A stretch of DNA of 64,000 bases from Patiria pectinifera (taxonomy: Eukaryota > Echinodermata > Asteroidea > Valvatida > Asterinidae), in contig CM057135.1 in NCBI GenBank assembly GCA_029964075.1, positions 20,548,863 to 20,612,862 of the forward strand, read 5' to 3'. The stretch's first letter is position 1. Every line of letters starts with the position of its first letter. Positions 11,379 to 57,259 of this stretch are shown here, in pieces. Under the pieces are notes generated by a model. That model searched no databases. It saw nothing but the letters and a program-made list of their open reading frames with translations, and was not told where the DNA came from. The position numbers and the translations under genes were made by a program.

Positions 11379-11466
11379 TTAGTTCGATTTGAGCTTATTT
11401 CAGTTAAAGCTCTTGAGGACATAACATCACCTTTGACCGTGAGGTCAAAGGTCAACATCAGTAACT

Positions 11467-17340: not shown

Positions 17341-17478
17341 AGACTGCAACAATGAGATAGAGTTCTGCAAAGGACACTCTTGAACATTGCCAAATAGCAA
17401 CTTTAATTTGGATATTTTCAGATATTCTGTTGCTTTGTATATTTTTGTAATTCCCAGTTAGGTCATTAGGGGCCGGGA

Positions 17479-29792: not shown

Positions 29793-30122
29793 CCGTATTG
29801 TCTCTAATAAATGCCCTCCCCTTTTGCAACCAAACTTGTAAAAATTTAAAAAAAGGACAGCAAATGAGTACAACCAGTATGCTCTTAAGTCTACATTTAC
29901 AATTATGATTGTAAATTTGATTGCTACACCTATCAAAAAAACATTATTTATTAAACTTTTTTGCATCAGAATCCAAAATTTTTATTTCAGGCAGTTTTTA
30001 TAATGAATCAGAATCCAAAATTTGTATTTTCAAGCAGTTTTTATAATGAAAAGTTCACCAATAAACCCCCTCCCCCCCGGAAAATGTCAATGCCTCGGAG
30101 GCGTTTATTAGAGACAATACGG
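29793..30122. mobile_element. Mariner-like MITE with TA target site
   Basis: The ends CCGTATTGTCTCTAATAAA and TTTATTAGAGACAATACGG are inverted copies bounded by TA on both sides (29791-29792, 30123-30124). The interior is non-coding and includes a tandem duplication of about 40 bp (CAGAATCCAAAATTT...GCAGTTTTTATAATGAA) near 29967-30050. Confidence 0.7.
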
Positions 30123-30431
30123 TATCCTTAATTATATACTTAATAATTTTATACAAAATCTTTGACAACACATAACACTAGTTAAAATCTACAAGCATTC
30201 ATATTTCTAGAAAATATCCATCCTGGAAAAAATTCACAGCCCTGTCATTGGGCCATTTTTCACAATTATAGGCTTATGAACAAATCATTTATGAGTTTCA
30301 TTCCTCTTGGCTACCCTGGTAGCTGCAGCTTTTTGGGCTCCTCTTTTTCAATTTTTGGCCACTTGGCAGAGGTGACTTAGTGAGTGTGAGACCATCTGTT
30401 TACTTAGGAGCAGACGTGAGGCAAGAATTTC

Positions 30432-32281
30432 TTATGTTTCCTCATCAGGTACAGCATCGTCAAGATCATGTGCAGCTCTTCTCTTCTCTTCAAACACCTT
30501 CGCCAGGTATTCACTAGGAAGGTACTCATTAGGTTGACTTACATTGCCATCCTGAAAATTATGTAAAAGTAATTTAGGCAAATCCATAAAATGGCCAGTG
30601 CAAGTTGGCTGACACGTTGAGCAATCTTGGGGTAGTCTTTCTTGATCAGGAACAGGCCAAGGGAAGAACAATACAGACGGTCCTTTTGGACACCATAGAA
30701 CACTTGATGGGTCATCTCCGAATCTTCTCTGGCAAACAGGGTGGGCACAGTCTGGTTTGAAACAGCAAACTAACCTGAAAACATATTTGTTTCCTTGTAC
30801 AGTGTGGTTATCCATAATTGATAATATCTTATCTATGTGTTGGAATCTTTCCATTTCTTCAGGAGATAATTCTTTCAATTTGTTTCTGGCTGATTTTGAA
30901 GCCTTTAAATACTTGTTCAAAGTATTGCGACGAGTCTGCAGTTCTGATGAAAGGAATCCTGTTGCACACTTAAAGAGACGTATTTCACCCCCTTTGTATT
31001 CGGTTTTATCTACTCTATCTATGTAGACGTCTGTGGCAGCATCTTGATTCGCCTTCACTCTTTCAAGATCAACTTCGCCTAGTGTGTCTCTGTTTTCACC
31101 ACACAGTGTTGAGGGAATGAATAAATTAGCAGCACTCCTGCACAGCTGCCCATGTAAGTGTTCCACCTCATTCAGAAACGAACCCCCGCTGTACCTAGTT
31201 GTCACTATTGTGGCTAATTTTTGTCTCTCTGTGTGCCATTCTGTCCACATGAATTTGGTTTCGGCATGGGATGGATTTTCATCGCCTCCTCCATCGACTC
31301 TTATGTATGTAGTCTATTTCTTGTCTGAATTGTCGGCTGAGAAGAATTTAGATTGGTATAAGGGTGAGCTCCTCAACATGTCCAGATCTGCGTATTGTTG
31401 ACCAGCATTCTTGGGATCTAACTTATTACACTTGACAACTCCGGCATATTAAATTTTGTCAATGGGGGAGGTTTCACTCCCACTAAAGTAGTAAGAAGAC
31501 ACTTGCAGAACATTTTGTTCTTTGTTGGTAAAGTCTGTGTGAGTTGCCAGATCTTCTTCTCCCCTGATCATAATAGATTTTATTTTTCCTGATGTTGCGA
31601 GGGTGTCCAACCTGAACCCTGCGGCGTCATCTCGATTGAGGTACATAGCATTTTGGTGATCTTTTTTTTGCAGGACATTAAGTGATTTGTAGAGACAGTT
31701 GGACCATTTTTCATCTGCATTTATTTTTATGTCAAAACCCTTTCGGCCGCGCTTACTGATGACGTTTGCTACACTTTTGTAGCGTTTACTTGATGCATTT
31801 CTGGAATTGCGTGGTACACAAAGTTGTATGATCTGACCGTGACTTATGTGCCCTCCCAGTTCCTCTTGTAGTTGATGTTGCAATCTTTGAAATGTTATTT
31901 TTTGTCCAATCTTTTTTCTCTCCCAAGTGAGAGATCCAGATGAACGCCATTTATCAGCACCCACATTCGATTCTTTGTCCAATGTGTGGATGTCGTATCA
32001 ATAGACTATCTCTCCTAGGTGTAGTTTGCTGGAGAAACCGTCTTGACTCATATTTCTTTTTTATCTTTCTTCTGAACTTCTGAACAAAGTTGTATGATCT
32101 GACCGTGACTTATGTGCCCTCCCAGTTCCTCTTGTAGTTGATGTTGCAATCTTTGAAATGTTATTTTTTGTCCAATCTTTTTTCTCTCCCAAGTGAGAGA
32201 TCCAGATGAACGCCATTTATCAGCACCCACATTCGATTCTTTGTCCAATGTGTGGATGTCGTTTCAATAGACTATCTCTCC
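30432..32281 (-). pseudogene. DDE-transposase-like protein, catalytic and C-terminal part, decayed
   Basis: One minus-strand frame runs from about 31982 to the stop at 30432, broken by two in-frame stops (TAA at 31449, TAG about 140 bp further on) while staying open between. Motifs in order: NRDDAAGFRLDTL, RVDGGGDENPSH, then SGGSFLNEVE. These fit the three acidic positions of an RNase H-fold DDE transposase, with about 43 residues between the second and third. A Cys/His-rich stretch follows (CCFKPDCAHPVC, CSTCQPTC), and the tail is acidic. Such proteins cut and join transposon ends, but this copy cannot be translated whole. Its 5' region contains a 266-bp tandem duplication and then a foldback insertion. 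I do not know the family's formal name, and the DDE assignment is inference from spacing and motifs. Confidence 0.55.
31818..32281. repeat. 266-bp tandem duplication within the transposase-like gene
   Basis: Copy 1 is 31818-32083. Copy 2 begins at 32084, is interrupted after 32284 by the foldback element and resumes at 35295-35359. The copies differ at only a few bases (for example TCGTATCAATAG against TCGTTTCAATAG). Copy 1 is therefore the empty version of the insertion site. Confidence 0.8.
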
Positions 32282-32284
32282 TAG

Positions 32285-35200
32285 TAGTCCAGCGGATATG
32301 TGAAAAAATTGTGCACTTTTGCATAAAAGCGTGAAACTTGGCACAGATGTTTATATTCATGCGAGAAAATGTTTTAGATGTGGAGCCATCGCAAATTTAC
32401 CCTTTTAGGGCGTGGCATCCATTTAAAAAAAGGGGGGCGGGACTTGTCGTGCCCGCAGTGAAAATGGTTTTTCCCACTTGTTACAAAAGCAGGAAACTTC
32501 ACAAAGACATAATTATATAGATTATTAGTGTTTTCCAGATTCGGAGCCACCAAAAAAGTACCTTTTTGGGGGCGTGGCAGCCATTAAAAGAAAAGGGGGG
32601 GGGGTAATTATTATGCCCACTTTGGAAAACATTGTGCCCATATTTCATGAACGAATAAAACATCCCACAGACGTTTATATTCATGAGAAAAAATTTTCCA
32701 GATGTGGAGCCATCTTCGAACACACTCTTTTAGGGGCGTGGCAACCATATAAGGAAAAAGAGGGGGGCGGGGTTTTCATTATGCCCACCCTGGAAATATT
32801 GTTCCCACACTCATAGAGAAATGGAACTTTCCACAAACATTGACATTCATGAGAAAAAAAATTCCAGATGTGGAGCCATCTCGAACACACCCTTTTAGGG
32901 GCGTGGCAACCATATAAGAAAAAAAGGGGGGCGGGGTTTTCATTTTGCCCACCCTGGAAATATTGTTCCCACACTCATAGAGAAATGGAACTTTCCAGAA
33001 ACATTCACATTCATGAAAAAAAAAATTCCAGATGTGGAGCCATCGCGAACACACCCTTTTAGGGGCGTGGCAGCCATATTGAAAAAAAGGGGGTGGGGTT
33101 CTCATTATGCCCAACATGGGAAAAATGTGCCCACATCTCATAAACGAATGAAGCTATTCCCACAGACATTAATACTCACGAGAAAAAAGTCACATGTGGA
33201 GCCATCGTAAACACACCCTTTTAGGGGCGTGGCAGCCATAATAAAATGGGGGGGGGTAGTCATGATGCCCCTATAAAAGAAAGTCATGCCTACCTTTCAT
33301 AAATGGATTAAATTCCACTAGGACAATATATTCATAAAAATCTTCTTTTTTTATAAATGTGAAGCCATCACAAACCTACCCTTTTAGAGGCACGGCGTCC
33401 ATTTTTAAAATGGGGGGGGGGGTACTCAATATGCACAACATGGAAAATTTTGACCGCTTTTTATATAATAAAATCCACCCCATATAGCTGTTTAATGTGT
33501 TGGAGTACATGCAGGGCCGCCTTTATAGTTGGAAGTTACTGTTGGCAAACCCTTTGTTTTCTTTCACTATGCATTCTTGCCTCATCTATATTAACCCAGT
33601 TACTGGTAACCTTTCAACTGCAACAATATCTGAATTGGGGTATAAACTGGGGTGCCTCAGTTAGTCCTGGAAAGACTAGTGTTACTTCTCCAAATACATT
33701 GTTTCCCCTGCCTTTTTTTCTGACAGACCAAAAAGGGTTGTGTGGTGGGGGTACACAGATTCATTGAATGTGAAGTCATAGTGGACGTGTCCACCACTTT
33801 GTGAGGCGAGTACATCGTATTGTTACCCAATCTGCTGCCAATGCGGCGCAACGGGTAGGGGGTAGGGGGATTTTACACTCCCCCCCCCCTTAAAAAAGGA
33901 TTTCCATGGCCCTTAAATGTTAAATGTTAGAGTTTAGGGCTGCCATTGTGTGCTGTGTATTTGTAATTATGAAATCACTCTGGAATTTAGATGTGCATGA
34001 TAATGTAGGTGCAAGTACACACATTGAACCCTATAACACGGGTTAGCCTACCGGTACTTACCCATGCTCTTTGGTGTAAGTCATTGTATTACCAAATAAT
34101 ATAGGTTATGGGCCAATCAATATTATACGACAGCAACAACAAATTATAAAAATTGCAATTGTGGGCACAGTGAGTAGGCCCCTCACACCTCTAATAGGAT
34201 GAGTTTGCTGTGGCTCTACATATGAATTTATTATCTTGCACCAAGTTTGTGTGAAGTTTAGTCATTTATGAAAGTTCGATGGTGGGCAAATGATTAGTAG
34301 CACCCCCCACCCATTTTTTTTTTAAATAGATGCCATGCATCTAAAAGGATAAGTTTGTGATGGCTTCAATTACAAAAAAAAGAAAGATTTTAATGAATAT
34401 ATTGTCCGTGTGGAGTTTAATCCATTAATGAAAGGTAGGCATGACTTTCTTTTATAGGGGCATCATGACTAACCCCTCCCCCCATTTTACTATGGCTGCC
34501 ACGCCCCTAAAACGGTGTGTTTACGATGGCTTCACGTGTGACTTTTTTTTTCTCGTGAATATTAATGTCTGTGGGAATTAGCTTCATTCGTTTATGAGAT
34601 GTGGGCAATTTTTTCCATGTTGGGCATAATGAGAACCCCGCCCCTTTTTTTTCCAATGTGGCTGCCACGCCCCTAAAAGGGTGTGTTCGCGATGGCTCCA
34701 CATCTGGAATTTTTTTCTCACGAATGTCAATGTTTCTGGAAAGTTCCATTTCTCTATGAGTGTGGGAACAATATTTCCAGGGTGGGCATAATGAAAACCC
34801 CGCCCCCCTTTATTTTCTTATATGGTTGCCACGCCCCTAAAAGGGTGTGTTCGAGATGGCTCCACATCTGGAATTCTTTTTCTCAAGAATATTAACGTCT
34901 GTGGGATGTTTTATTCGTTCATGAAATATGGGCACAATGTTTTCCAAAGTGGGCATAATAATTACCCCCCCCCCTTTTCTTTTAATGGCTGCCACGCCCC
35001 CAAAAAGGTACTTTTTTGGTGGCTCCGAATCTGGAAAACACTAATAATCTATATAATTATGTCTTTGTGAAGTTTCCTGCTTTTGTAACAAGTGGGAAAA
35101 ACCATTTTCACTGCGGGCACGACAAGTCCCTCCCCCTTTTTTTAAATGGATGCCACGCCCCTAAAAGGGTAAATTTGCGATGGCTCCACATCTAAAACAT

Positions 35201-35294
35201 TTTCTCGCATGAATATAAACATCTGTGCCAAGTTTCACGCTTTTATGCAAAAGTGCACAATTCATCGATATTTTGTCACATATCCGCTGGACTA
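32285..35294. mobile_element. 3.0-kb foldback element with long composite inverted repeats
   Basis: The ends TAGTCCAGCGGATATGT and ACATATCCGCTGGACTA are perfect inverted copies, and the similarity extends about 1.1-1.2 kb inward from each side. Each arm is a run of about 164-bp subunits (about 7 left, 6 right), each with CACCCTTTTAGGGGCGTGGCA and a poly-G patch. The middle (about 33480-34250) is unique and non-coding. TAG flanks both ends (32282-32284, 35295-35297), and the uninterrupted duplicate at 32015-32030 has a single TAG, proving a 3-bp target duplication. There is no transposase, so movement would need one in trans. Confidence 0.8.
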
Positions 35295-35297
35295 TAG

Positions 35298-36150
35298 GTG
35301 TAGCTCGCTGGAGAAACCGTCTTGACTCATATTTCTTTTTTATCTTTCTTCTGAACTTCTGTTTTAGTCGCTGTCTTGATTTACGTTTAGCTAAATCTAT
35401 TGTATCGTCATCAGCACTGGTTTGGAGTACTATCGGTCTTTCATCTGGCAGTGATTGATGTTCTGTAGTATCAGATTCATCTGTAACATCGGGTCCATCA
35501 GGAGCTTGCTGTGGATTCAACAGCATCATCTGATTAGCTTCATCTGCTGATTCCATTATAGTGTAATATGCTGCTTCTTTTTCTTCAGCTTCAGCCATTG
35601 CATTTTGTACCTCTCTTTTATTGTCTTTATGATTTCCTATTCCATAGTGCTGCTTCGCCTTTTTTGACGAAAGATGACTTGTGGCTGCAAACTTGATAAG
35701 GCGCTTGTCTTTCTCAGAAGAGGCCAATTTCTGCAGCGAAGCTTAGTTTGTCTCTGCTGAGTGCTGGAGCTTCGTCACTGGATTTGGAACTAAACTTATC
35801 TAGAATTTGGTAAAACGTAGCATAATCTGTTCTGCAATCCTTTTCAAGCACATATATTGCTTGCCAACCATTTTTTTTCCACTAGAAGTCGAGTCTCTTG
35901 ATAATGTAACGAGTACTACAGGCATCTTCCCCAATCTTTTAGCAGCAGTATATGTGTTATGTTCACCCCTGGCAGTGTGAGTTGCGATAACCTAGTATTG
36001 CGCCCTCTCGTGGTCCTCGTAGTTTTTCGCTCAAGTTACACAATTGTCAGTCACGCCAAGTTTTAATCCATTTTTAGTGCCCATTTTTCCATCTTTTTGA
36101 GACCACTCTATACCGATAGCCTTACACCAGAAGACCACTGGTGAGTTTAA
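35298..36150 (-). pseudogene. Transposase-like gene, upstream part, decayed
   Basis: Minus-strand frames read onward toward the foldback element. VFWCKAIGIEWSQKDGKMG (about 36130) is followed by stops. GWQAIYVLEKDCRTDYATF (from about 35870) comes after a shift in the T8 run at 35871-35878. A shift near 35730 leads into SSEKDKRLIKFAATSHLSS, an Ala/Glu-rich helix, and a basic stretch ending KKYESRRFLQ at the foldback boundary. Without the insertion this stretch joins the region at 32281. I recognise no domain. Position and strand suggest it is the N-terminal side of the DDE-like protein. Confidence 0.5.
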
Positions 36151-37344
36151 GATTCCATTTATACTTGTGTTAGTGATTATTGATCGTTATTTGATGAGTA
36201 ATTTGTATCGTAATTTTCAGTCACATTTTGCCACCATGATTTGCTGTATCGCATCGATAATTTTCTTGTGCCTAGCGAAAACTTCCCTGATTTTGTGCCT
36301 TAGAATTTTCCTCAATATCGAGGCCAGTTTCTCAGATGAACTGACTGTAATGTTCAGTATTGTTTTCTGGTCAAGAAACAGTGGATATTTGGTCATTTTA
36401 TGTTTTCATATCGACGATTTTGGAATGTAATATGAGGTTAGGAACTTAGTTTTTGTGTGCACACGAGGCCTGCCTAAGCACATGCTCTCGCCATTTTTTC
36501 CATGAATATTCATGAGCTGGATTCCATATTTGGGATTAGCGTATCCTTATTTGGAAATTGCAGTAGTGCTGCAAGGTTTACAGTTTATTTAGGAACTATG
36601 CATTTTTCTTTATTTTAGGTTGATGATTTCAGTAATCCAGACCCATAGGAAGTTTGAGGACACTTCATCTTTTGGAGAGCACAGTTCTGTAGGTTAATTT
36701 CCATAGATTATCTAATGTGAATGTACTATCCCTTGGAGTTTTTGAGATGATATTATGCACCTACCTTTGTGATGTTTCTTATACATGTATCAGTTTGACA
36801 TATTACTTTTTGATCTTTCAATATTTTATTTATATTTTTATGTCTGGTGGTGTTAAATCTCTTGCCAACCTGTGTACATTTGTGCACATTGTTAATTGTA
36901 CTTAGTGTATTTTCCTTGTATTTCTTGTTTTTCACCACATGTGGTCCACCCACGACACAGGAATGAGAATAAAGCAGTCAAAGTTCAAAAAATCCTGTAT
37001 TAGTCAGAGGTTAACTTGTCGGAGAGAGGGCGCCCTCGGCGCTCCATGTTCGTCATAATATGCCTTGTACTTCATTGACGGATAGCAAGCCGCCCACACA
37101 GAGGAAAGTTTCACTGGCTGATGTTGTTAAATAAAAAATGCTGCATGAATATCTGCTGTGCAGCAACCTCCTGACACGTTTATTTCTACAAACATACTCA
37201 CAGATTTTTGCATATTATTGCAAACTTAAACCATTGAATGGTGATACCTGAACAAATGGGTGCGGTCGACACTTGGCATTTTTGATATTGAGAACTTTTG
37301 CTGATTCATGAAGGAAAACACCCAACTTTCTTTGGTCTAGTCAT
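36151..37344. other. No coding signal seen
   Basis: This stretch lies between the transposase-like frames and the 36-bp array. It is AT-rich and may be an intron or intergenic. I found no conserved frame or element ends. Confidence 0.35.
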
Positions 37345-40300
37345 GCAACCTCAACATCTGAACTGGTTTGAGGTTTAGCAACGTCAGTTTCATCTGCCTG
37401 AGATTGAGGTTTAGCAACGCCAGTTTCATCTACCTGGGGATGATGTTTGGTGATGCCAGTTTCATCTTCCTGGGGATGAAGTTTGGTGATGCCAGTTTCA
37501 TCTGCCTGGGGATGAGGTTTGGTGATGCCAGTTTCATCTACCTGGGGATGAGGTTTGGTGACGCCAGTTTCATCTGCCTGGGGATGAGGTTTGGTGATAC
37601 CAGTTTCATCTCCCTGGGGATGAGGTTTGGTGACGCCAGTTTCATCTCCCTGGGGATGAGGTTTGGTGATGCCAGTTTCATCTGCCTGGGGATGAGGTTT
37701 GGTGATGCCAGTTTCATCTCCCTGGGGATGAGGTTTGGTGAAGCCAGTTTGATCTACCTGGGGATGAGGTTTGGTGATAACAATTTCATCTCCCTGGGGA
37801 TGAGGTTTGGTGATGACAGTTTCATCTGCCTGGGGATGAGGTTTGGTGATGCCAGTTTCATCTCCCTGGGGATGAGGTTTGGTGATGCCAGTTTGATCTA
37901 CCTGGGGATAAGGTTTGGTGATAACAGTTTCATCTGCCTGGGGATGAGGTCTGGTGATGCCAGTTTCATCTGCCTGGGGATGAGGTTTGTGATGCCAGTT
38001 TCATCTCCCTGGGGATGACGTTTGGTGATGCCAGTTTCATCTACCTGGGGATGACGTTTGGTGATGCCAGTTTCATCTACCTGGGGATGAGGTTTGGTGA
38101 TAACAGTTTCATCTCCCTGGGGATGAGGTTTGGTGATGCCAGTTTCATCTGCCTGAGATTGAGGTTTAGCAACGCCAGTTTCATCTACCTGGGGATGATG
38201 TTTGGTGATGCCAGTTTCATCTTCCTGGGGATGAAGTTTGGTGATGCCAGTTTCATCTGCCTGGGGATGAGGTTTGGTGATGCCAGTTTCATCTACCTGG
38301 GGATGAGGTTTGGTGACGCCAGTTTCATCTGCCTGGGGATGAGGTTTGGTGATACCAGTTTCATCTCCCTGGGGATGAGGTTTGGTGACGCCAGTTTCAT
38401 CTCCCTGGGGATGAGGTTTGGTGATGCCAGTTTCATCTGCCTGGGGATGAGGTCTGGTGATGCCAGTTTCATCTCCCTGGGGATGAGGTTTGGTGATGCC
38501 AGTTTGATCTACCTGGGGATGAGGTTTGGTGATAACAGTTTCATCTCCCTGGGGATGAGGTTTGGTGATGCCAGTTTCATCTGCCTGAGATTGAGGTTTA
38601 GCAACGCCAGTTTCATCTACCTGGGGATGATGTTTGGTGATGCCAGTTTCATCTTCCTGGGGATGAAGTTTGGTGATGCCAGTTTCATCTGCCTGGGGAT
38701 GAGGTTTGGTGACGCCAGTTTCATCTCCCTGGGGATGAAGTTTGGTGATGCCAGTTTCATCTGCCTGGGGATGAGGTTTGGTGATGCCAGTTTCATCTAC
38801 CTGGGGATGAGGTTTGGTGACGCCAGTTTCATCTGCCTGGGGATGAGGTTTGGTGATACCAGTTTCATCTCCCTGGGGATGAGGTTTGGTGACGCCAGTT
38901 TCATCTCCCTGGGGATGAGGTTTGGTGATGCCAGTTTCATCTGCCTGGGGATGAGGTTTGGTGATGCCAGTTTCATCTCCCTGGGGATGAGGTTTGGTGA
39001 TGCCAGTTTGATCTACCTGGGGATGAGGTTTGGTGATAACAGTTTCATCTCCCTGGGGATGAGGTTTGGTGATGACAGTTTCATCTGCCCGGGGATGAGG
39101 TTTGGTGATGCCAGTTTCATCTCCCTGGGGATGAGGTTTGGTGATGCCAGTTTGATCTACCTGGGGATAAGGTTTGGTGATAACAGTTTCATCTGCCTGG
39201 GGATGAGGTCTGGTGATGCCAGTTTCATCTGCCTGGGGATGAGGTTTGTGATGCCAGTTTCATCTCCCTGGGGATGACGTTTGGTGATGCCAGTTTCATC
39301 TCCCTGGGGATGACGTTTGGTGATGCCAGTTTCATCTACCTGGGGATGAGGTTTGGTGATAACAGTTTCATCTCCCTGGGGATGAGGTTTGGTGATGCCA
39401 GTTTCATCTCCCTGGGGATGAGGTTTGGTGATATCAGTTTCATCTACCTGGGGATGACGTTTGGTGATGCCAGTTTGATCTACCTGGGGATGAGGTTTGG
39501 TGATAACAGTTTCATCTCCCTGGGGATGAGGTTTGGTGATGCCAGTTTCATCTGCCTGGGGATGAGGTTTGGTGATGCCAGTTTCATCTCCCTGGGGATG
39601 AGGTTTGGTGATGCCAGTTTGATCTACCTGGGGATAAGGTTTGGTGATAACAGTTTCATCTGCCTGGGGATGAGGTCTGGTGATGCCAGTTTCATCTGCC
39701 TGGGGATGAGGTTTGTGATGCCAGTTTCATCTCCCTGGGGATGAGGTTGGTGATGCCAGTTTCATCTCCCTGGGGATGAGGTTTGGTGATGCCGGTTTGA
39801 TCTACCTGGGGATAAGGTTTGGTGATAACAGTTTCATCTGCCTGGGGATGAGGTCTGGTGATGCCAGTTTCATCTGCCTGGGGATGAGGTTTGTGATGCC
39901 AGTTTCATCTGCCTGGGGATGAGGTTTGGTGATGCCAGTTTCATCTACCTGGGGATGACGTTTGGTGATGCCAGTTTCATCTCCCTGGGGATGAGGTTTG
40001 GTGACGCCAGTTTCATCTGCCTGGGGATGAGGTTTGGTGATGCCAGTTTCATCTGCCTAGGGATGAGGTTTGGTGATGCCAGTTTCATCTGCCTGGGGAT
40101 GAGGTTTGGTGATGCCAGTTTCATCTACCTGGGGATGAGGTTTGGCGACGCCAGTTTCATCTGCCTGGGGATGACGTTTGGTGATGCCAGTTTCATCTCC
40201 CTGGGGATGAGGTTTTGTGATGCCAGTTTCATCTCCCTGGGGATGAGGTTTGGTGATGCCAGTTTCATCTCCCTGGGGATGAGGTTTGGTGATGCCAGTT

Positions 40301-41660
40301 TGATCTACCTGGGGATAAGGTTTGGTGATAACAGTTTCATCTGCCTGGGGATGAGGTCTGGTGATGCCAGTTTCATCTGCCTGGGGATGAGGTTTGTGAT
40401 GCCAGTTTCATCTCCCTGGGGATGAGGTTGGTGATGCCAGTTTCATCTCCCTGGGGATGAGGTTTGGTGATGCCGGTTTGATCTACCTGGGGATAAGGTT
40501 TGGTGATAACAGTTTCATCTGCCTGGGGATGAGGTCTGGTGATGCCAGTTTCATCTGCCTGGGGATGAGGTTTGTGATGCCAGTTTCATCTGCCTGGGGA
40601 TGAGGTTTGGTGATGCCAGTTTCATCTACCTGGGGATGACGTTTGGTGATGCCAGTTTCATCTCCCTGGGGATGAGGTTTGGTGACGCCAGTTTCATCTG
40701 CCTGGGGATGAGGTTTGGTGATGCCAGTTTCATCTGCCTAGGGATGAGGTTTGGTGATGCCAGTTTCATCTGCCTGGGGATGAGGTTTGGCGACGCCAGT
40801 TTCATCTGCCTGGGGATGACGTTTGGTGATGCCAGTTTCATCTCCCTGGGGATGAGGTTTTGTGATGCCAGTTTCATCTCCCTGGGGATGAGGTTTGGTG
40901 ATGCCAGTTTCATCTCCCTGGGGATGAGGTTTGGTGATGCCAGTTTCATCTCCCTGGGGATGAGGTTTGGTGACGCCAGTTTCATCTGCCTTGGGATGAG
41001 GTTTGGTGATGCCAGTTTCATCTCCCTGGGGATGAGGTTTGGTGATGCCAGTTTCATATGCATGGGGATGAGGTTTGGTGATGACAGTTTCATCTGCCTG
41101 GGGATGAGGTTTGGAGATGCCAGTTTCATCTGCCTGGGGATGAGGTTTGGTGATGCCAGTTTCATCTCCCTGGGGATGAGGTTTGGTGATGCCAGTTTCA
41201 TCTCCCTGGGGATGAGGTTTGGTGATGCCAGTTTCATCTCCCTGGGGATGAGGTTTGGTGACGCCAGTTTCATCTGCCTTGGGATGAGGTTTGGTGATGC
41301 CAGTTTCATATGCATGGGGATGAGGTTTGGTGATGCCAGTTTGATCTGCCTGGGGATGAGGTTTGGAGATGCCAGTTTCATCTGCCTGGGGATGAGGTTT
41401 GGAGATGCCAGTTTCATCTGCCTGGGGATGAGGTTTGGTGATGCCAGTTTCATCTCCCTGGGGATGAGGTTTGGTGATGCCAGTTTCATATGCATGGGGA
41501 TGAGGTTTGGTGATGCCAGTTTGATCTGCCTGGGGATGAGGTTTGGAGATGCCAGTTTCATCTGCCTGGGGATGAGGTTTGGAGATGCCAGTTTCATCTG
41601 CCTGGGGATGAGGTTTGGTGATGCCAGTTTCATCTCCCTGGGGATGAGGTGTGGCGACAT
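37345..41660 (-). repeat. 36-bp coding-type array (12-residue unit), about 120 copies
   Basis: The unit, read on the minus strand, gives PHPQADETGITK with A/G at position 5 and I/V at position 10. The + strand reads MRFGDASFICLG, but the minus strand is the sensible coding strand because its frame continues from non-repeat exon sequence at 41670-41740. Larger blocks are repeated: a KPQSQADET variant at about 37399, 38153 and 38586, and a block of about 680 bp at 39.7-40.4 and 40.4-41.1 kb. One-base deletions in GAGGTTTGGTG occur near 37983, 39240, 39709, 39742, 39887, 40390, 40423 and 40567. The first in-frame stop met from the upstream side is TAG at 40738-40740. The array ends with SSDVEVA and a stop near 37349. 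Confidence 0.85.
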
Positions 41661-44600
41661 CAATTCCATTTGGCTGGCATTCCATTACAAGTTGCACATT
41701 CTTATCAACTATCTCTTCTTTAATTTTTTTCTTTGGATGCAACGCAGATCACGCTTAGCCTTTTTATCTTTTTGGAGCAGATTATTCATTTCTATTCTGC
41801 AGACACGTTGCTTTTGCTGGAGGGTTTTTATTTTCTCACGAAGACATTCTGCTTCTTCATCCTTCTCACAGCTTACTTTGATGCTACATTTGCTTTCTGC
41901 TATGGCTTTGTCTTTATACCATTTAATTCTTCCTCTAATTCTTGTATTCTTTCCCCTCTGGCTGTTTTGGTCCATCTTGCATTCACACCTTCACCTTTCT
42001 TAGCCTTGTCTTTCTTGCTTTCTGACTTCCCCTTAGCAAATGCATACGTCTTGTTTACTACTTCCCTCCCCATTTCTAGAAGTTTACCTTTACCCCCATT
42101 CTCTGTTAAAATGAGTGGATTTTTTGTCAAAATTTGGGCACATGCCTTATTCACTGTGCTGTTATATCTGGCATTTTTCCCACTTTCATCTAAAATTTTT
42201 GCTTTTTTTTACAAAGCTCTTATTTACTGTTGGTGTTGCCAAAAACTCTAGAAGCGTAGCTTGTCTCTGGGTAGTCTTGGGTGAAGCGGATCTCTTGAGC
42301 GTAGTCTGTCTCTTGTCCTGAGGGCTTGCATTCATCGTTGGTTCATCTATAATTGAAACAAAAATCAAATTCAAGATGCAATTAGAACAAGTAGATCAGT
42401 ACACTAGGCGATGCGTAATATATGTCCCTGCCCCTAATTTCACTATCAAAAACCTGAGTTTGTGTGAGAGATAAACTTTGACCTTGGTATGTCGCCTTCC
42501 ACCTAATTAACATAATGAAGGTTCCCACATTTTGGTTCAAAATGGACTTCAACTTTTCAAATGAGTCCAATTTTATGTTCAGGTTTTAATAACATCTTTA
42601 CAAAGTATTGTCGTGAGTTACAAACAGTCCGACCATCAGGGCGGGTATTATGCCCGCAAGGAAGCCAGAGGCGGGTAACATTTGCGTCGAGTGGGTTACT
42701 TTTAAAAAGTACACGCACGGTTTGGTAGTAACAATTTTTAGTGTTGTTACTGTATAATAATATAATAATAATTTAAGAGGCTAATCACCCTTACTCGCAG
42801 CTGGGATGCTGAATTGCGAAGGATGCGGCTACAACGTGGTCGAGTCGCTGGCACGTAAAGGCGCTAGGCCAGGTTGGACGAAGTCTTCATTGCAATACGA
42901 CTAACGTCCAGGACAAGACTTTTCTACATGAAACCATACAACATTTTTACCCGAGTTTTGTTATGTTTTACCTCGTTATAGAAGCTAATATTTCACGCCT
43001 ACATACTCTATGTATCCTTATCTGTTGGGTTGCTGGGTTCAGGAATTCCATATGCGATGCTGACTGACGTTAATCAGGAAAATAAACTCCACTAAACAAT
43101 AAATAATAAACTTGTACGTGTTTGTAGTCGCTTTTCATCAGTTTATTCCCAGAGTCGTACGTCATGTACAATGTACATGATATGTACAAATGTACGTGCG
43201 TACAATCCGAAAGCGCGCACGCACGCTAAGCGCCCTCATTTGTTTAGTTTTGGTTGGAACCTTGACGTTACTCCAGCCAACCGATGTCAGGAAAACGCTC
43301 AACCAATGACCAAAGCCGAAACGTGTTTCTGGTAACTAGCGCGAAAACACGCTCGGTCATTGGATTAGCGACCGCACCTTCAAGTAAGTGCGCGTGCGTA
43401 TGAGGGTGGTTACTAAGCAAATCGCGCGTGCGCACTGCATATTTATGCAGCATAGTCTGTCCCCCGGACCAGATGTGATATGAGCGTTGAGAATAATTAT
43501 AGGGAACCAGACTACACGCTGCACAGTACAGACGTTCATGATGTACGACTAGAATAGACTCGGCGGTGAGAAACTGATGAAAAGAGACTAAACACGTAGA
43601 AGTTTAACGATGCTTTCGAGTTTATTTTCCTGATTGACGTCAGTCAGCATCGCATATGGAATTCCTGAACCCAGCGTGCTAACAGATAAGGACACATAGA
43701 ATACTACGACGTAAAAATTAGCTTCTCCAACAAGGTAAAAATATTAAAATTATTTGGTCAGAAATGTTTTTGTTCGGTTGTGAGCACATGTGTACTCAGG
43801 ACTCCCTCCGTAACGTAGGGAGGAAAGGGAGTCCACCAGGGCTAGTAAAGGCGCCTGTGGCAGCCGGCCACATCGACCCATATGACCACGGAGCACAGCC
43901 TAAGATCGAGAGTGTTTGATTTTTACAGAGGGAGGAAAACCGGAGGGCCTGGAGAAAAACCCTCGTGGTGCAGGAGAGAACCAACGCACAACTCTACTCA
44001 CGTACGGTCCGAGCCGGGAATCGAGCCTGGGCCGGAGTGGTGAGAGGCAAGCGCTTTATGCACTAGCCACCCATGCCATTGGGCTGTTAAGATTACATTC
44101 GAACTGGCGAGTTGGCAAACCAAAATTAAGATACACCCCTGCCAACCAACCAGTGTGCATGATAATGCAACCATTTTTTTATGACAGATATCAATGCACA
44201 TCTTGCATAATTAATATGGGAAGCTTCCTCTGGATATTTGCATCATTAACATTAATACAGTTTATGAATAAATGTCAACATACATGTTTCGGATGAAGTG
44301 TCAGAGCCACGTGATGATGTAGTAGGCGAAGAGGGCAATGAGTCCACCTCAACTTCACCTTCAGCTGGGAACATAAACAGGATAGAATAATCAATACAAG
44401 CAGTTTATCTATACAGTCCTACCAGTAATCTGAGGGGACCATTTTTCCTTTTTTTTTCCTATGGTTTGATAAATAACCTTTCAGGAATAGCTTCTAATAC
44501 TATATTGATTTTTAACTATGGTTGTACCATGGGATAATAGGTGAAGAAAAATTATCATTTGACTGAAAGAATAAAAGAAACGGGTCAATATTTCTATTAC

Positions 44601-45364
44601 TTTAAAACCAGATTTGACGTGCTGTTATATTTATAGCACTACAGCAGTACTCGAGTTTGTATTGCAATTCCATAAAAAATAAAAAGGAACTCATTGGTAA
44701 GGTCTAATAAGCAGTGGCAGTGTAAATGACACAGTACTATTGACATGTAATTTTTGGTATATTATACAAAGTCTACTTACTTGTTTGTTGATGGTCAGAT
44801 GCACCAGCAGTACATGTAGATGTTGATGGCACTTCATCATTAAAGAAAACAAAGTAGATAGGTTCAGATTCTTGCAGGAAGGCAAACAGTTCACAGTCGT
44901 CTACATCTGTGCCGTCAGATAACCTCAGGCACTTGAATTTCTTTTTTTCCTTTTGCAGCTTTGTGACACCTGAAAATGGGATTTTTTATGGCATTAATTG
45001 TCTGGAAAAATATTTCTGGTACATTATACCATTTGTTTTGGAAAGGAAAACTACACAACTTTGTCAGTGGATGGGAAAAACGTCTGAAGTGCATTGCATT
45101 TGGAATTAACATATGCCACCAAATGAAAAATTCTGTTCACCTAGGCATAAAAGAAACACAATAAAAGCAAACAGCCAAAAGATTTAACAAATCTACTTTT
45201 GAAAATTTGGTGTGTTGTTAATGTGCTCGCTATAAATTACAGCACAAGTGTAGCGAGGCTCTTCTGCTCACCTTTGTCTATTAGCTCATCCAGTGATTTG
45301 GCCAACACGAGTTTCTTATTCTCTGCGTGCCAATTTTTTTTTGGGGGGGGGTTGCCATTTGTGA
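40738..45364 (-). CDS. Multi-exon gene: CIDE-N-like domain, coiled coil, dodecapeptide repeats
   Basis: Exons (minus strand): about 45364-45272, 44969-44781, 44364-44284, and 42346 onward. The three introns begin GTGAGC, GTAAGT and GTATGT, end in AG, and all join in phase. Exons 1-2 encode LVLAKSLDELIDK then CLRLSDGTDVDDCELFAFL and PIYFVFF, which resembles CIDE-N domains (protein-interaction modules of DFF/CIDE proteins). Exon 3 is Ser/Thr/Glu-rich. Exon 4 encodes KILDESGKNARYNSTV, a Lys-rich segment, a coiled coil (ERIQELEEEL; CLREKIKTLQQKQ), and then about 25 PHPQADETGITK units to TAG at 40738. Exon 4 needs three frame changes: at T8 42203-42210, near 41935, and at T7 41724-41730. The start codon is unclear; an ATG near 45357 is out of frame across a C9/A9 run. 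Function is unknown. It is either host-derived or part of a transposon gene. Confidence 0.6.
42967..43741. mobile_element. Inverted-repeat element with arms of about 205 bp
   Basis: The arms 42967-43170 and 43533-43741 match in inverted orientation (GGGTTCAGGAATTCCATATG, CGATGCTGACTGACGT, TTTTCATCAGTTT). The loop is GC-richer with CpG-containing repeats. It lies in intron 3 of the CIDE-N-like gene, carries no transposase and may be a large MITE. Confidence 0.6.
43798..44095 (-). mobile_element. tRNA-derived SINE
   Basis: Read on the minus strand, an A-box-like GTGGCTAGTGCATAAAGCG (near 44055-44073) is followed by the B box GGCTCGATTCCC (44016-44027). Next comes a body with GGTTCTCTCCTGCACC and CTCCGGTTTTCCTCCC, motifs seen in several animal SINE bodies. 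The 3' end (near 43798) forms a short hairpin from GGACTCC and GGAGTCC. It lies in intron 3 of the CIDE-N-like gene. Confidence 0.6.
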
Positions 45365-46021
45365 CTTTTAGTATAGCGTGTAAAGTAAATAAAGATCATT
45401 ATTGGCCTGATAGTGATTCATAAATAAAAGCAGGGAACTATACGTATACAGCAATTTTTTACTAGTATTATAGTCGGTGCTCTTGACATTTATTTTGTAT
45501 AAGCCTAGAGATGACAATTTTGCCAAATTATTTTCCCAAATAATTTGGGAAGCTCCTTCCTAGAAAATCTTGGTGTTGCGTTGGGTGTTTGGAGAGAAAT
45601 TGTGCAAACTAACTTTAACAATAGTAACTAACACTGTAAGAATGTTGACATGCCATTGCCAAACCTGGACGCCGGAGATGACAATGACACAAATCCCCCT
45701 CTATCTATGCAATGCCTGATAGTGATAAAGGACCAAGATCCACAAGAAATACCATGCAGACTCGTGCAGGATCAGCATCTACAGAGGATGGTGCGGAAAT
45801 TACGCTCTAATCTATGCCTTACCCGATCATTAAAAAAAACAACCAGGATCTCATTTAATTAGCATGATTAGGGCACGATAGGAATGAAGTCCACGTGACA
45901 TCTGGACCAGGAACGCGAAATGTACATCATGACAACAACTAGCCTTAGTCTATGGCCCACAGTACTTATTGTACATACTTGGCCATCCCCATACGCATGT
46001 GTGTACAAAAAGTTGGTTATT
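45365..46021. other. No recognisable gene
   Basis: This is upstream of the first recognised exon of the minus-strand gene, so promoter or further 5' exons could lie here. None could be identified by eye. Confidence 0.3.
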
Positions 46022-46084
46022 TTCAACCAAAAAATTACCAAACTCAAATGGAAATCAATCGCGTTCATACTCGCCATGTGGGCT

Positions 46085-46582
46085 CAGTCTCGCAAGCGCC
46101 CGCAAATTTCATCAAAATTAGGACTTGGCGGTGCTTACTTTTGGCGAAATTCGTCGTTGAAATTTTCAAAATGTCCATCGACACTTCAACTTCTCAAGGT
46201 TGTTGTCATCATGCATCGGACGAGGTCTGGCTCCGCAACAAAAATATTCGGACGATTGCTTTTTCGGTTCGGGAACCAGACTGTACATTTATCGTGTGAA
46301 TACGCAGGCGCACATGGCTAACGGTAATTCGCCCGCCGCAAGACGAAATACGTGTGCGCCTTCGTATTCACACGATACATGTACAGTCTGGTTCCCGAAC
46401 CGAAAAAGCAATCGTCCGAATATTTTGGTTGCGGAGCCAGACCTCGTCCGATGCATGATGACAACAACCGTGAGAAGTTGAAGCGTTGATGGAGATTTTG
46501 AAAATTTCAACGACGAATTTCGCCAAAAGTAAACACCGCTAAGTCCTAATTTTGATGAAATTTGCGAACGCTTGCGAGACTG
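46085..46582. repeat. Near-palindrome with 233-bp arms
   Basis: The arms 46085-46317 and 46351-46582 are inverted copies with few differences, separated by a loop of about 33 bp (GGTAATTCGCCCGCCGCAAG). Both arms keep similar open frames, but the peptides have no family signature, so I read it as a foldback or MITE-like structure. Confidence 0.7.
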
Positions 46583-46813
46583 GATAATCGTTACTTTTAG
46601 GACCCCGTTCCTATATATAAGGTTAAGAGACTCGCCAAAACAGCTCACTAAATGACACTCAAAAGTGACATTCTGATACTTCTTGATAGTTTGAACAGCT
46701 GGTAATGACACCTTCCTTGAATATCAACAGTACGTTAAGTTTGTGGAAATAATAGGGCTGGGCTTTAATGTATGAGGGAAATTATGGAGTAAAAGACGAC
46801 GACGAAAAACCAG

Positions 46814-46928
46814 AAAACCAAGACGGCAACAGCCCGATGCTAATTGGCTGATAAAAAATAATTTTTTATCAGCCAATCAGCATCGGGCTTTCAGTAATTT
46901 TGCTCGGCACTGTTGCCATCTTGATTTT
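46814..46928. repeat. Palindrome with almost no loop
   Basis: GCCCGATGCTAATTGGCTGA followed by TAAAAAA is mirrored immediately by TTTTTTA and TCAGCCAATCAGCATCGGGC. Further out, AAGACGGCAACAG pairs with CTGTTGCCATCTT after a bulge. Confidence 0.7.
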
Positions 46929-47150
46929 CAAGCGGCGTGTTCTACTGCCAAAACTGGTGAGAATTTCACTTTTTCTCCCCGTGTCCACTTCAAAATGATA
47001 ACAATCAAGTGTCAAAGTGAAATATGGAGATTCCTATTATTATTAAGGCTGCAAACAAATTCCCTGAGAGACTGAGCCCACATGCATGACAATTGACACG
47101 GCGAATATGAACGCGATTGGTTTCCATTGAGTTTGGTAATTTTTGGTTAA

Positions 47151-48240
47151 AAAGGCCGACGGAATGAAAGTCGTAGAATACCGTCCTGCTGGTTTTGAAA
47201 AACAATGAGGCTTTATTTCATTATTCATTATTCTGAAGCACTAACCAGAATCAGGTCAAATCATACTGATTGATAGGTATGCATGTACCAGTCATAGGCC
47301 ATTCGTCACATCGCGATCGCCGATATGCAGCATGCATCAGCTCAGCTCGCTCAATATGCACACGCGTCACTTCACACACAAAATGTGCATGAGCCATATC
47401 GCCCCACACGTGCGCTTGCCATAGATCGATTGCCAAGAGGGGCAACCTCGTCCCCAGTGCTTACTTTATTTCCAACCGCGTTTCCAATAGTAAACCCTGA
47501 ATAGGAAACTTTCTTCCTGTATCCTGATTGGATACCGCAATTGGCTAGTAATGGATTTTTATCGTGTACTTGGTGCTATATATTCACAACGTGCAGTACG
47601 TGTTTTCGCGATCATTCGTCCACGCCTTCTCGAAAATACTAATTTCCAATTTGCTCATATTAATATGAAATATGATACTGCATGTTGTCTCGATAAGATC
47701 GTAACAGTTTGATTTCAAAAATCGTGTTTTCGTTACTCACGCCGTGCTCATGCTGCTACGAATTGACTCTGTTTTTACCCCATACACCGCATACAAAAAC
47801 AAACGCTAATGTGTAACGCATATCCAGGCACCAGACTGTTCCTCGTTTGCATACGTTTGCAAAAATCTTGCACATGCAAATGATCCAATACCAGGGTGAG
47901 AGAGCGGGTAGTGGTTGGCGCGTTCTGCTCGAAACCCTGGGTACGAGGTTGCCAAGAGGGGGTATTTTAATTGCTGAATTGAGACTACCCTACTAGTCTT
48001 TTTCCAGTCGTTTTCATTCTGTGCGCGCGCTGTGTGGTTCGGATGACAAATTGCATGATGTCACTACGTACGTTGTTATTTCAACTCCACCTGACTGCGT
48101 TACCAACCACCAAAAACACACTATAATTATTTTTATGACAAGAAAATAATAATATCGTCTGCTTACCGTTCGGTTGTTGTACTGTCAAAACCACCACGTA
48201 CGTTCGCGATCGCCTTTCCTTGCTGATAAGGACAGGGGAC
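47151..48240. other. No recognisable gene
   Basis: Anonymous DNA between the inverted-repeat cluster and the LINE fragment; no conserved frame was seen. Confidence 0.35.
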
Positions 48241-48244
48241 TAGT

Positions 48245-49930
48245 CTAGTTCGCCTCGTTGCTATAAACTTTCGCCAACGTTGGCGCGGCGGCGCACAGCT
48301 TGTTCGATCCACTCAAAATGCGATCGGTAGCAAACGTGCGCAAACTTGGCAACGTTTGCGCAAGTGGAACCACCACAGGATCATCATCTAGTCCTTGTTT
48401 ACTCTCTTCAGCCACGTGGTTCGTTGTCCCCCTCTTGGTAGCTTGTTCTTGCGGACTGCCTCTAGAAGTGCTTGCTTGGCAGGAGCTTCCTCGGGTAGTC
48501 TCAGGAGATGGCCTGTCCACCTAAGACGTCTTCGGGTAATGGCAGTATTCCAAGGGATCTCGTTGGTTCTCCTGTACAGTTCTTTATTGGTAATCTTCTT
48601 GGGCCATTTTATATTAAGGATTGAACGCAAGAGTCTTCTGTGAAATGCATCAATATTCTCTTCTAGTGACTTAGTCAATGTCCATAGTTCGCTGTTGTAT
48701 AGGAATACAGATGCTATGAAGGCGCGGAATGTTTTGAGTTTCGTGTTGTTTGAGATTGCATCACTGTTGAAGACATTCCTGAATTTGTTGAAAGATACCA
48801 TCGAAAGTATTTTCCTCCTGGTAATATCTTGCTCAGTGTCGAGAAAAGATCCCAAGTATTTGCATTTCTTCCAACTGGTGTTGCTTCCGTTTCTACTGAT
48901 GAGGTGTTTCTCCGTCTTAGACGTGTTTACTGTGAGGTTTCGCTCTTTTAGTACCTCAGGTGCCTTCCTCTCCACAGTTGCTATCGGGTGGATATTGTTA
49001 CTTGCCCAAGTAATGTCATCAGCATCTGTAATCCCATCTCAAAGTATGCTGGCGGGCAAATGGCGTAGCTGTGGTTCTCGAGTTCCACAGGAAGGGATTG
49101 GGACTGTGTGTGCGTGCAGTAATTGTGATCTTGAAGAGTGAATGGTGTCTCGGGTGTTTCCGGGTCAAGTTGTCTCAGTGCTTTTGCCAGGTATAGAGTG
49201 AAGAGAATGGGACTGAGACAGTCTCCTTGAGGCACGCCGATGTTGGTTTTGAAGGGCTTACCCAAGACAGTTCCCACTCTGACTTGCAATCGAACGTCTC
49301 TAAGCAAGATTGCCAGTAAGTGGGGTTCGTCTTGCTCTAGTATCTCTTTAAGATCCTCAAAGAGAACCACTCTCCTCACCGAGTCAAAAGCCTTTGACAT
49401 TTTGAGCAGCAGTAGGTGAAGTTCATAGCTATCGGCTGTGATGGCCTTCTCTGCTAAGATCTTTAAGGCAAAGACCTGCTCAGTGGTGCCTCTGCCGTGT
49501 CGATAGGCTGCTTGGGAAGCTGGTATGTGGTCGTCTAATCTGTCGGCGATTCTCTTCGTCAAACAAATGGCCATTATTTTCCGGATAATTGTCAGAAGAA
49601 CGATTGGCCTTATGTTCACTGGGGGTCCCTTTGGTTTGCCTGGCTTAGGAAGAGGAACGAGAATACCTTCTTTGATGTCGTCAGGGTAGATGCCAGTGCT
49701 AGCGGTTTCATTCAGAGTTCTGGCAATTTCTCGAGCAATCATCTCGGGTCCATACTTAAGCAACTCGGCACTGAGATTATCTTTTCCAGCACTTTTGCAA
49801 TTTTTTAGTGATTGGATCGCCTTTTTGACTTCTATCTTGGTGAAGGGCTTGCTCATTATCCGTGGTGGAAATTCTTCAATTATAGCTTCATCATTCAAGT
49901 CAAACCACAGGATACAGTTTGCAAGGTGGT
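48245..49930 (-). pseudogene. Non-LTR retrotransposon (LINE) reverse transcriptase, truncated and decayed
   Basis: The minus-strand frame from 49898 has RT signatures: AGKDNLSAELLKYGP, NIRPIVLLTIIRKIM, QAAYRHGRGTTEQVF, MSKAFDSV and GVPQGDCLSPILF. A frameshift near 49030 leads to DADDITWAS and then the C-terminal domain (LLRSILNIKWPKKITNKEL, RRLRWTGHLLRLPEE). It resembles RTE-type LINEs. It copied its RNA into DNA at a nicked target site. Motif A has Lys where the catalytic Asp is expected (LLKMSKAFD) and motif C is DADD, out of frame. The endonuclease domain is missing, so the copy is 5'-truncated and dead. Confidence 0.85.
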
Positions 49931-50061
49931 GCGGCGCGCGATGTTAGATTGTGTGTATTTGTGTGGGCAAACTTCAGTTCAAAAATTGCGCGCACACAAA
50001 TTCCAAGTTGGCTTGCGCGAATTTCAAAACAGGCCATCAAGGTAATCACAAATTTGCTAAG

Positions 50062-51576
50062 ATGGCTGGTCAACAGTGTGTTGCTATGAGCTTGTGTGCA
50101 ATCCTCTATAGCCAAATTAAGCTGTTAAACATGTGGTGTTGCAAGGACATGGATTTTGTGTTGAATACTGGGAATGAATTGTACACATGCTTATCTCGGA
50201 GCTCTACAATGATGAATGCATACTTGTCAATCAGTGAGTTACCTGATGAAATTGATGCATTTGGTAAACATTTCCAAATGGAGATTGCTGAATCTGTTTC
50301 TGGTACTTTTGGAGAAGAAGCACATTTGATTGAGTTCAATATGATTGCATTGAGTAGGGCAGTAGAGCAGGCAGTTCAGAAATATTTTGCATGTTTTATC
50401 TGTTTCCATGGAAACACATTTTCAGTAATTGCTCAAAATGGAATGTATTTTATTTTTGATTCACATTCTAGAAGTCACAGTGGCCACCAAGATGCTGAAG
50501 GAAAAAGTTTGTTGAAATGTGTATCATCATGGGAAGGTGTTTACAGGTACTGTTCTTCTGTACTCAGAAAGTCTATGAATGTCAGTGATAGTGAACAGTT
50601 TGAAATTACAGGAGTTACTGTTTGGATAGATGATGATCTCAGTATCTGTAACATGCAGGATGAGACTGATAACAGTAGCAATGTTGCATGCACCAATAGT
50701 AATGCACAGACAATGGAAAGCTGTGACATAAAAATCGTAGAAACTAAGAAAGTTAATTTTAAATTTGTTCCCTTAACTTTTGATATTAAGGTTGCATTGT
50801 GCGAGAAACTAGGTGTGAAAAAAATGTGTCTGCATGCTGTTGAGATACCTAAGCAATGTGACACACTGGGAAGACCTGAATCCATAAAGAAAATTGAAGG
50901 TGCCGGTAACTGTTACTACAGGGCCATAAGTTATGCGGTGTCAGGAAGTGAAGATAATCACATGAAATTCAGAGTGGCAATAGTTAATCATTTGTTGAAT
51001 AATGCAGCTCAGTTTAAGGGCTATTTACGTGAAGGTTACAGGACAGTGCAAGATTATCTGAGAAATGCAACATTGTTTGATAGTGATACCTGGGCTATAG
51101 AGGTGGAAATAATTGCAACAGCACACTTGTTGGATTGTAATATTTACACATATGATGATGCTAATAAGTGGTATTTATTTTCCAATTCATTCACACAACG
51201 TGGTGTTGATCATTCTGTGAAAGCAGGTATTTATTTGTGCCACAGAAATCAGGTACATTATGATTTAGTCACAAGTGCAAGTGAGGTAATAACATCGGTG
51301 TCAGATAGGAGTGAGAAGCAGAATCAACATACAAAATCAAAGAATAGAGTGTTGAAACATTCAAAGTGTCAGAGACGTAAACGTGTAAATGTAAGATTGA
51401 AGCAAAAACTAAACAAAGAGAGGGCCAGAAAAATATATCAGAAAATGAAAGAAGATGCAAGTAAGATAAACGAGACTGTTAATGTCAAGGTAACTAAGCG
51501 TAGAAAAAGGGATAAAAAGAAATACAAACAAAGTATTATGTACAGGGAGATGAAAAAATATGTCAAAAAAGAGTAA
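50062..51576 (+). CDS. Helitron-encoded double cysteine protease (C76-like plus OTU)
   Basis: I chose the ATG at 50062 because the peptide AGQQCVAMSLCAIL right after it is the expected start of the first domain; the frame is open further upstream. Domain 1 (about residues 4-180) has Cys in QQCVAMSLC and FDSHSRSHSG, as in herpes-tegument/C76-like deubiquitinases. Domain 2 (about 270-395) is OTU-like: GAGNCYYRAISYA supplies Cys and NQVHYDLV supplies His; the usual Asp of the DGNC motif is Ala. The tail is Lys/Arg-rich with repeated basic heptads and may bind DNA. OTU domains are common in animal Helitrons and may strip ubiquitin from proteins. The frame is intact over 505 codons, unlike the downstream Helitron frames. 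Confidence 0.75.
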   Translation: MAGQQCVAMSLCAILYSQIKLLNMWCCKDMDFVLNTGNELYTCLSRSSTMMNAYLSISELPDEIDAFGKHFQMEIAESVSGTFGEEAHLIEFNMIALSRAVEQAVQKYFACFICFHGNTFSVIAQNGMYFIFDSHSRSHSGHQDAEGKSLLKCVSSWEGVYRYCSSVLRKSMNVSDSEQFEITGVTVWIDDDLSICNMQDETDNSSNVACTNSNAQTMESCDIKIVETKKVNFKFVPLTFDIKVALCEKLGVKKMCLHAVEIPKQCDTLGRPESIKKIEGAGNCYYRAISYAVSGSEDNHMKFRVAIVNHLLNNAAQFKGYLREGYRTVQDYLRNATLFDSDTWAIEVEIIATAHLLDCNIYTYDDANKWYLFSNSFTQRGVDHSVKAGIYLCHRNQVHYDLVTSASEVITSVSDRSEKQNQHTKSKNRVLKHSKCQRRKRVNVRLKQKLNKERARKIYQKMKEDASKINETVNVKVTKRRKRDKKKYKQSIMYREMKKYVKKE

Positions 51577-55541: not shown

Positions 55542-55624
55542 GTCCACCCCTACCATGCCTAAGTCCTCATCGGGGTCTGTTCAACAAAGTGCCTTGAAGA
55601 ATTTCTCTGGGTCGTTGTTGAAGA

Positions 55625-57251: not shown

Positions 57252-57259
57252 ATGTTGAG

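Follow-up and report, generated by a model that had tools for sequence, protein, structure and literature searches.

In a 64,000-nt stretch of the Patiria pectinifera genome (hereafter the window; positions 20,548,863-20,612,862 of contig CM057135.1, which we call C7, in a searched genome of 613.5 Mb in 1,020 contigs) we found a gene on the minus strand whose first two exons together encode a CIDE-N domain, an interaction module that is known from proteins of cell death and of the apoptotic nuclease system, and which as a whole looks like a relict. The explanation that we favour, at a probability of about 0.6, is that this is what is left of a spliced gene whose CIDE-N belongs to a lineage of transposon-linked genes sharing one intron, that the domain once served self-assembly, and that a minisatellite forms the 3' end. 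Exon 1 (45272..45362, on the minus strand like the rest of the gene) encodes the first part of the domain, KKLVLAKSLDELIDK+G, and ends at the donor AAG/GTGAGC, intron 1 (44970..45271) is a GT...AG intron of phase 1, and exon 2 (44781..44969, 189 nt) encodes the remainder, VTKLQKEKKKFKCLRLSDGTDVDDCELFAFLQESEPIYFVFFNDE, followed by a Ser/Thr-rich linker. The joined exons scored 38.1 bits (E 1.6e-9) against the Pfam CIDE-N profile (PF02017), of whose 76 positions they covered 8-62, whereas on their own exon 1 reached 14.9 and exon 2 reached 14.4 bits, both of which are below the Pfam cut-off of 23.5 bits. The E value of the join leaves leeway for many GT/AG pairs having been tried, and when the linker and exon 4 were added the score was 36.3 bits. 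The initial annotation, made from the letters alone, had proposed a domain very like CIDE-N that the longest open frames miss, and this held on both counts, as the joined score is significant and the genome-wide CIDE-N scan described below did not list this locus, presumably because each half is too weak alone. A split domain was therefore recoverable by reading the raw sequence where open-frame scans fail.

The window domain carries SDGT and VDDCELF, the latter with L in place of Y, which correspond to the EDGT core and the VDDxxYF-like signature given for CIDE-N in PMC2426694, and the D, G, and T of the core are invariant in all four CIDE-N copies that were aligned. Its KK pair and DGT...VDD align with RK and DGT...VDD of fly DREP3, which was also the top row when the PDB was searched with the window domain as a single sequence (E 0.032). 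When the PDB was searched with a profile of four CIDE-N sequences, the window domain included, 13 of the 14 rows at E<=0.01 were CIDE-N proteins, a result that owes much to the other three sequences of the profile. Like the known family (PF02017; DFF40/CAD, DFF45/ICAD, CIDE-A/B/C, and fly DREP1-4) the window domain is over the Pfam cut-off, but the window gene differs from the family in that a Ser/Thr linker, a coiled coil, and a minisatellite follow the domain and in that its frame is broken. CIDE proteins proper combine CIDE-N with a CIDE-C domain. A Pfam scan of two pieces of the window gene, part 2 of the coiled coil being outside that scan, gave no nuclease or inhibitor part and no other match over the cut-off. 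That exons 1 and 2 encode a CIDE-N domain and that the junction between them is genuine is well supported.

Other copies in the genome, whose search had been suggested with the initial annotation, were sought in two ways. The direct query with the window CIDE-N returned its own exon 2 only (five candidates scored), and because of this the Pfam family was searched genome-wide, which gave seven other matches at E<=0.001, five of them on C7; around each of these, 10 kb was fetched for comparison. In six of the seven loci there is a phase 1 acceptor at the position that corresponds to the start of exon 2 in the window gene, and in four of these six (L016-L019) there is also a phase 1 donor with an upstream exon ending in SL/SM-x-E-L/I-x-x-K-G, while the remaining two (L020 and L021) showed no exon 1 in the sequence fetched. 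At the seventh locus, C6:16.876 Mb, the CIDE-N exon begins in phase 0 and at a different site, and the fetched 10 kb had no transposase match. At all six phase 1 loci, which we call the kin loci, an open reading frame (ORF) for a transposase lies upstream of CIDE-N on the same strand. Relatives of the 845-aa ORF described below lie within the fetched 10 kb at L016 and L021, and about 5 kb and about 9 kb upstream at L017 and L020, respectively. It is because the acceptor site and phase of intron 1 are common to these six loci that we tie the window domain to the transposon-linked lineage, and because the kin loci adjoin transposases, two of them within copies of one element, CIDE-N looks like cargo of a CACTA-like DNA transposon, or like its second gene, the kin genes themselves being predicted ones. 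A literature search conducted without bioRxiv preprints and without most subscription papers returned no report that ties CIDE-N to transposons and, as far as such a search goes, the link between CIDE-N and transposase genes is new.

The element in question, found around L018 and L019, is a 12,005-bp stretch on contig C5 which is repeated on C7 at 99.1-99.3% identity, so that two near-identical copies stand on different contigs. The two copies differ by 17 gaps, some of which are differences in homopolymer length, and the C7 copy holds one insertion of 1.9 kb; the likeness stops at ends of the CACTG/CAGTG type, past which the flanks that were fetched gave no more matches. The termini of the C7 copy are CACTGTAAA...TTTACAGTG, its ends reading ACACTGTAAAAC... 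and ...GTTTACAGTGT, and they form terminal inverted repeats that start with CACT(A/G), while in the C5 copy the 5' end reads CAATG, with one mismatch in the 5' repeat. In the outermost 250 bp of the two ends the motif TGTTTA was counted 5 and 12 times, whereas 46 windows inside the element averaged 0.35 and had no more than 4, and this amounts to subterminal repeats. Of the three other motifs counted, GTTTAA (chiefly at the 3' end) and TTTATT were raised, but not GTGACA (1 and 1). The element has, on the same strand as its CIDE-N gene and upstream of it, an ORF of 845 aa that is of the same length and unbroken in both copies; against Pfam it gave only a sub-threshold match to DUF4218 (E 0.11, 12.8 bits, cut-off 27). 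The flanks read TA...TA at the C7 copy and show no such pair at the C5 copy, so a target duplication is not clear. CACTA/EnSpm transposons have CACT(A/G) ends, subterminal repeats, Tnp2-type transposase domains, target duplications of 2-3 bp, and two genes such as TnpA and TnpD. The 12-kb element resembles them in its ends, its TGTTTA repeats, its large transposase-like ORF, and its having a second gene, and it is unlike them in that its Pfam match stays below threshold and in that the second gene carries CIDE-N. We therefore call it CACTA-like, from its ends and subterminal repeats, and do not claim membership of the superfamily. In a separate observation, at least 106 matches to the transposase core, counted as pieces and ranked by likeness to the C5 query, were listed in the genome; 80 of these were on C7, and 78 of the 80 were in its first 23.2 Mb, which is about 3.8% of the genome and in which the window lies, at 20.55-20.61 Mb. 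This half of the chromosome may be unusual in some way, for example by not recombining.

Several results weigh against the explanation that we favour. No tblastn match to the transposase of the kin family was found in the window. Exact inverted matches between 26500-30435 and 45360-49000 were at most 13 nt long, a length equalled or exceeded in 19 of 60 shuffles by the same exact-match measure, which gives no support to terminal repeats that would frame a transposon here; showing neither such repeats nor a matching transposase, the locus is not itself like CACTA/EnSpm. Past CIDE-N the window gene is unlike the transposon-linked proteins, and even within CIDE-N its identity to three kin domains is only 28-31%. 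Since L018, L019, and L020 share near-identical DNA, the independent kin lineages number fewer than six. The single-sequence PDB search placed an unrelated SYG-2 chain second. Homopolymers of 7-9 bases stand at two of the three coding frame breaks described below and at the missing start, which makes an assembly error possible there, and the unbroken 1877-aa ORF elsewhere in the window contains no homopolymer of 7 or more and so provides no test of such errors. We also considered whether exon 4 or part 1 of the coiled coil could be the conserved C-terminal region of the kin proteins (W..LI.E.A.FY..KYP...), and this was rejected by a tail profile built from three kin, against which coiled-coil part 1 scored -1.5 and exon 4 gave no score, compared to 76-106 bits for the six kin loci, three of which are the seeds of the profile. 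The same profile gave no row at E<=1 against the six-frame translation of the window, and coiled-coil part 2 was covered by this six-frame search only.

That the window lacks a transposase of the kin type and that its gene has different downstream parts would also be expected if it were a decayed host gene of the DFF/DREP kind, the CIDE-N of the transposons having come from an ancestor in which this intron was already present. CIDE-N is ancient in animals, being present in hydra and sea anemone (PMC2426694), which fits such an origin, but the one locus without a transposase match in the 10 kb fetched, C6:16.876 Mb, has a phase 0 intron at another site, whereas the window gene has the intron of the transposon type. 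We consider a host origin somewhat unlikely, although it overlaps with the explanation that we favour; the alternatives in general overlap, and their probabilities do not sum to one. For the transposon-linked relict, we infer that the window gene descended from a transposon gene and not the reverse.

If the protein of the window gene was once intact, its CIDE-N would most likely have acted as a self-assembly module, in which opposed basic and acidic faces join head to tail, as CIDE domains are known to assemble through opposite charges (PMC8647176). The basic coiled-coil tail would have served for dimerising and probably for binding nucleic acid or a partner, and the 36-bp minisatellite would have grown where the gene has its 3' end. 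For the kin linked to transposons, the second gene of the element could help to bring the transposase or the element ends together, and such a module beside a transposase could aid in building the transposition complex, as its position and domain suggest. The second protein of CACTA elements is a precedent for a role of this kind. We suggest tentatively that the second gene of CACTA-like elements encodes a CIDE-N self-assembly protein, for complex formation or end bridging, and that the window gene might be a relict or a host-captured descendant of it with a new coiled-coil tail. If the link is true, a domain of programmed DNA fragmentation and lipid droplets serves mobile DNA too, and this would bear on the origin of CIDE-N and on its raised copy number in some cnidarians. 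Two Hydra species have 10 and 7 copies of CIDE-N compared to 1-3 in five others (PMC7642931); in the available text of that paper CIDE-N is described as over-represented in Hydra, is named beside transposase-related domains, and is treated as a DNA-binding motif, and that text reports no link to transposons.

Beyond exon 2 the gene continues through intron 2 (44365..44780, donor CAA/GTAAGT), exon 3 (44284..44364, 81 nt, a Ser-rich linker), and intron 3 (42347..44283, donor CAT/GTATGT), inside which there is an inverted-repeat pair at 42991-43089 / 43618-43716, into the in-phase part of exon 4 (42189..42346), which ends in ...KKSKNFR and then TGA. All three introns are GT...AG introns of phase 1 at exactly the coordinates that the initial annotation had given, and the peptides quoted there are present in the joined frame, which is open from 45395 to 42189. 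The junctions fared unequally, in that intron 1 is backed by homologues while introns 2 and 3 have good sites but no homologue sharing their junctions was found, and these two introns are plausible only. The claim that one transcript joins CIDE-N to the coiled coil and a giant array found no support. The joined frame closes at the TGA just after 42189, and from there to the array three frame changes are needed, namely into the basic stretch and part 1 of the coiled coil (41903..42208, second frame), into part 2 (41712..41915, third frame), and before the array. In addition, there is no ATG in the frame upstream of or in exon 1; the nearest one, at 45358, belongs to a different frame, and a double homopolymer (C9/A9) stands in between. 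As assembled, this is not an intact translated gene, and the locus looks like a relict gene for which we favour a pseudogene over an assembly error.

Of 500 first-order resamplings of the 697-nt stretch past exon 4, 15 had an open frame as long as its longest one (102 aa), and only 2 equalled its two longest open frames taken together. This rarity makes a coding past likely for the stretch. When the joined coiled-coil query was searched against the genome, one other place was listed (C7:41.394 Mb, E 7.9e-6, six candidates scored), and this is itself a broken copy with four stops, to which part 1 is 42% identical over 50 aa and in which, as judged by eye, a stretch like part 2 comes next in another frame. 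The genome Pfam search listed no CIDE-N near it. These comparisons suggest that the coiled-coil stretch was formerly coding. About 8 kb upstream of this copy, at L006:590-1057, there is a second array with a 12-residue repeat (APAPSTEVVPAA, 36-bp unit), which is probably a coincidence.

The array of the window gene is real, but its end had been put at 40738, which is only the first stop, and it runs 3.3 kb further. It is a 36-bp minisatellite at 37385..41654 on the minus strand, reading PHPQADETGITK in one frame, for which Tandem Repeats Finder gave 118.8 copies and cutting unit by unit gave 119 units with 36 distinct sequences; the last array frame ends at 37341..37384 with ...DVAKPQTSSDVEVA and then TGA. 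It is interrupted by eight one-base deletions and two TAG units, and these sit at matching places in what appear from the unit list to be larger duplicated blocks, although no lag was above 40% in a lag test. The 30 variant types fall at codon positions 1, 2, and 3 in numbers of 10, 11, and 9, that is, with no codon-position bias, and 23 are nonsynonymous, 6 are synonymous, and 1 is a stop, which is close to the 72, 26, and 3% expected without selection. Coding selection on the array was therefore rejected, as there was no sign of it in any frame. The unit length of 36 is a multiple of three, which keeps several frames of the array open for long distances, and its open frame is accordingly weak evidence of coding. 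A dispersed satellite has no support either, since a 24-base pattern had 40 exact matches in the genome, all of them inside the array. The 36-bp unit, the apparent higher-order duplications, and the degenerate edge are like those of minisatellites in general, from which the array differs in adjoining a decayed coding stretch and in being open over long parts in several frames. The best explanation is that it is a minisatellite that is not maintained as protein.

A functional protein could nevertheless have ended before all this, consisting of CIDE-N, the linker, and the exon 4 tail as far as ...KKSKNFR and acting possibly as a CIDE-N interactor, with the rest being a 3' untranslated region and the minisatellite. 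The frame that stays open from exon 1 across three phase 1 introns to the TGA agrees with this, but exon 1 has no in-frame ATG and the coiled-coil stretch beyond has a homologue at C7:41.394 Mb, by which it was probably once coding, and we regard such a short protein as unlikely.

Downstream on the same strand there is what looks like a second decayed gene whose relation to the CIDE-N gene is unproven, with one ORF at 35164..35742 and further pieces at 31452..31997 (KINADEKWSNCLYKSLNVL...) and 30435..31313 (IRVDGGGDENPSH...LNEVEHL...). For the ORF at 30435..31313 a single distant relative was listed (C7:4.068 Mb, 22% identity), in which VDGG...NPIEHVW resembles VDGG...NEVEHL of the ORF, and from this likeness the ORF may be a relic of a DDE transposase, for which Pfam gave no match in these ORFs. 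It could be argued that these ORFs (30.4-35.7 kb) and the CIDE-N gene are two genes of one dead DDE-type transposon of another family, given that they are on the same strand with 1.6 kb from the array end to the first ORF, and that CIDE-N stands beside a transposase at six of the seven other loci. Exact matching found no terminal repeats, however, no CIDE-N match is listed near C7:4.068 Mb, the 7 kb upstream of that relative has no tblastn match to parts of the window gene, and each of the two genes has at most one other genome match listed, so that this too is an unlikely account. Least probable is an intact gene, as the initial annotation had it, for CIDE-N, a coiled coil, and a dodecapeptide array that would act as a long flexible or multivalent tail, the breaks being assembly errors at homopolymers: the positions of two breaks and the missing start, the homopolymer differences between the C5 and C7 element copies, and the fact that from the lead-in through the first 25 units the frame does not change, the last units reaching a stop in that same repeat frame, would fit it, but the break near 41,910 is away from any homopolymer of 7 or more, the deletions and TAG of the array recur at matching block places, which is unlike random errors, the array has no codon-position constraint, and both copies of the element keep the 845-aa ORF unbroken.

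Around the transposon-linked relict that we favour, the window holds several other elements. A large foldback element (32307-35262), whose arms consist of tandem units of about 164 bp, interrupts the decayed downstream gene, and the part of that gene adjoining it contains a 201-bp direct duplication (31818-32018 and 32084-32284, 99.5%). About 700 bp upstream of exon 1, at 46085-46582, there is a near-perfect palindrome with 230-nt arms at 95% and a 38-nt loop, which is like a miniature inverted-repeat transposable element. At 10517-18373 lies a BEL/Pao-type long terminal repeat retrotransposon whose 862-bp terminal repeats are 99.65% identical, a young insertion, and it contains the unbroken 1877-aa ORF mentioned above, with matches to Pao peptidase and integrase H2C2. 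Helitron-like remains are present at 49948-55562 on the plus strand, where successive ORFs match an OTU-type protease, Helitron_like_N, and PIF1 helicase. They are followed at 55622-58213, also on the plus strand, by a reverse transcriptase ORF and then by a tyrosine recombinase-like ORF that has no Pfam match and in which GHSFRIGAAS...GRW is presumably the recombinase motif; this element is perhaps DIRS-like. Finally, a tandem array of a 25-bp unit (GGGTCAGGTGTACCCACTTGGTTT) is present in about 12 copies at 59264-59567.

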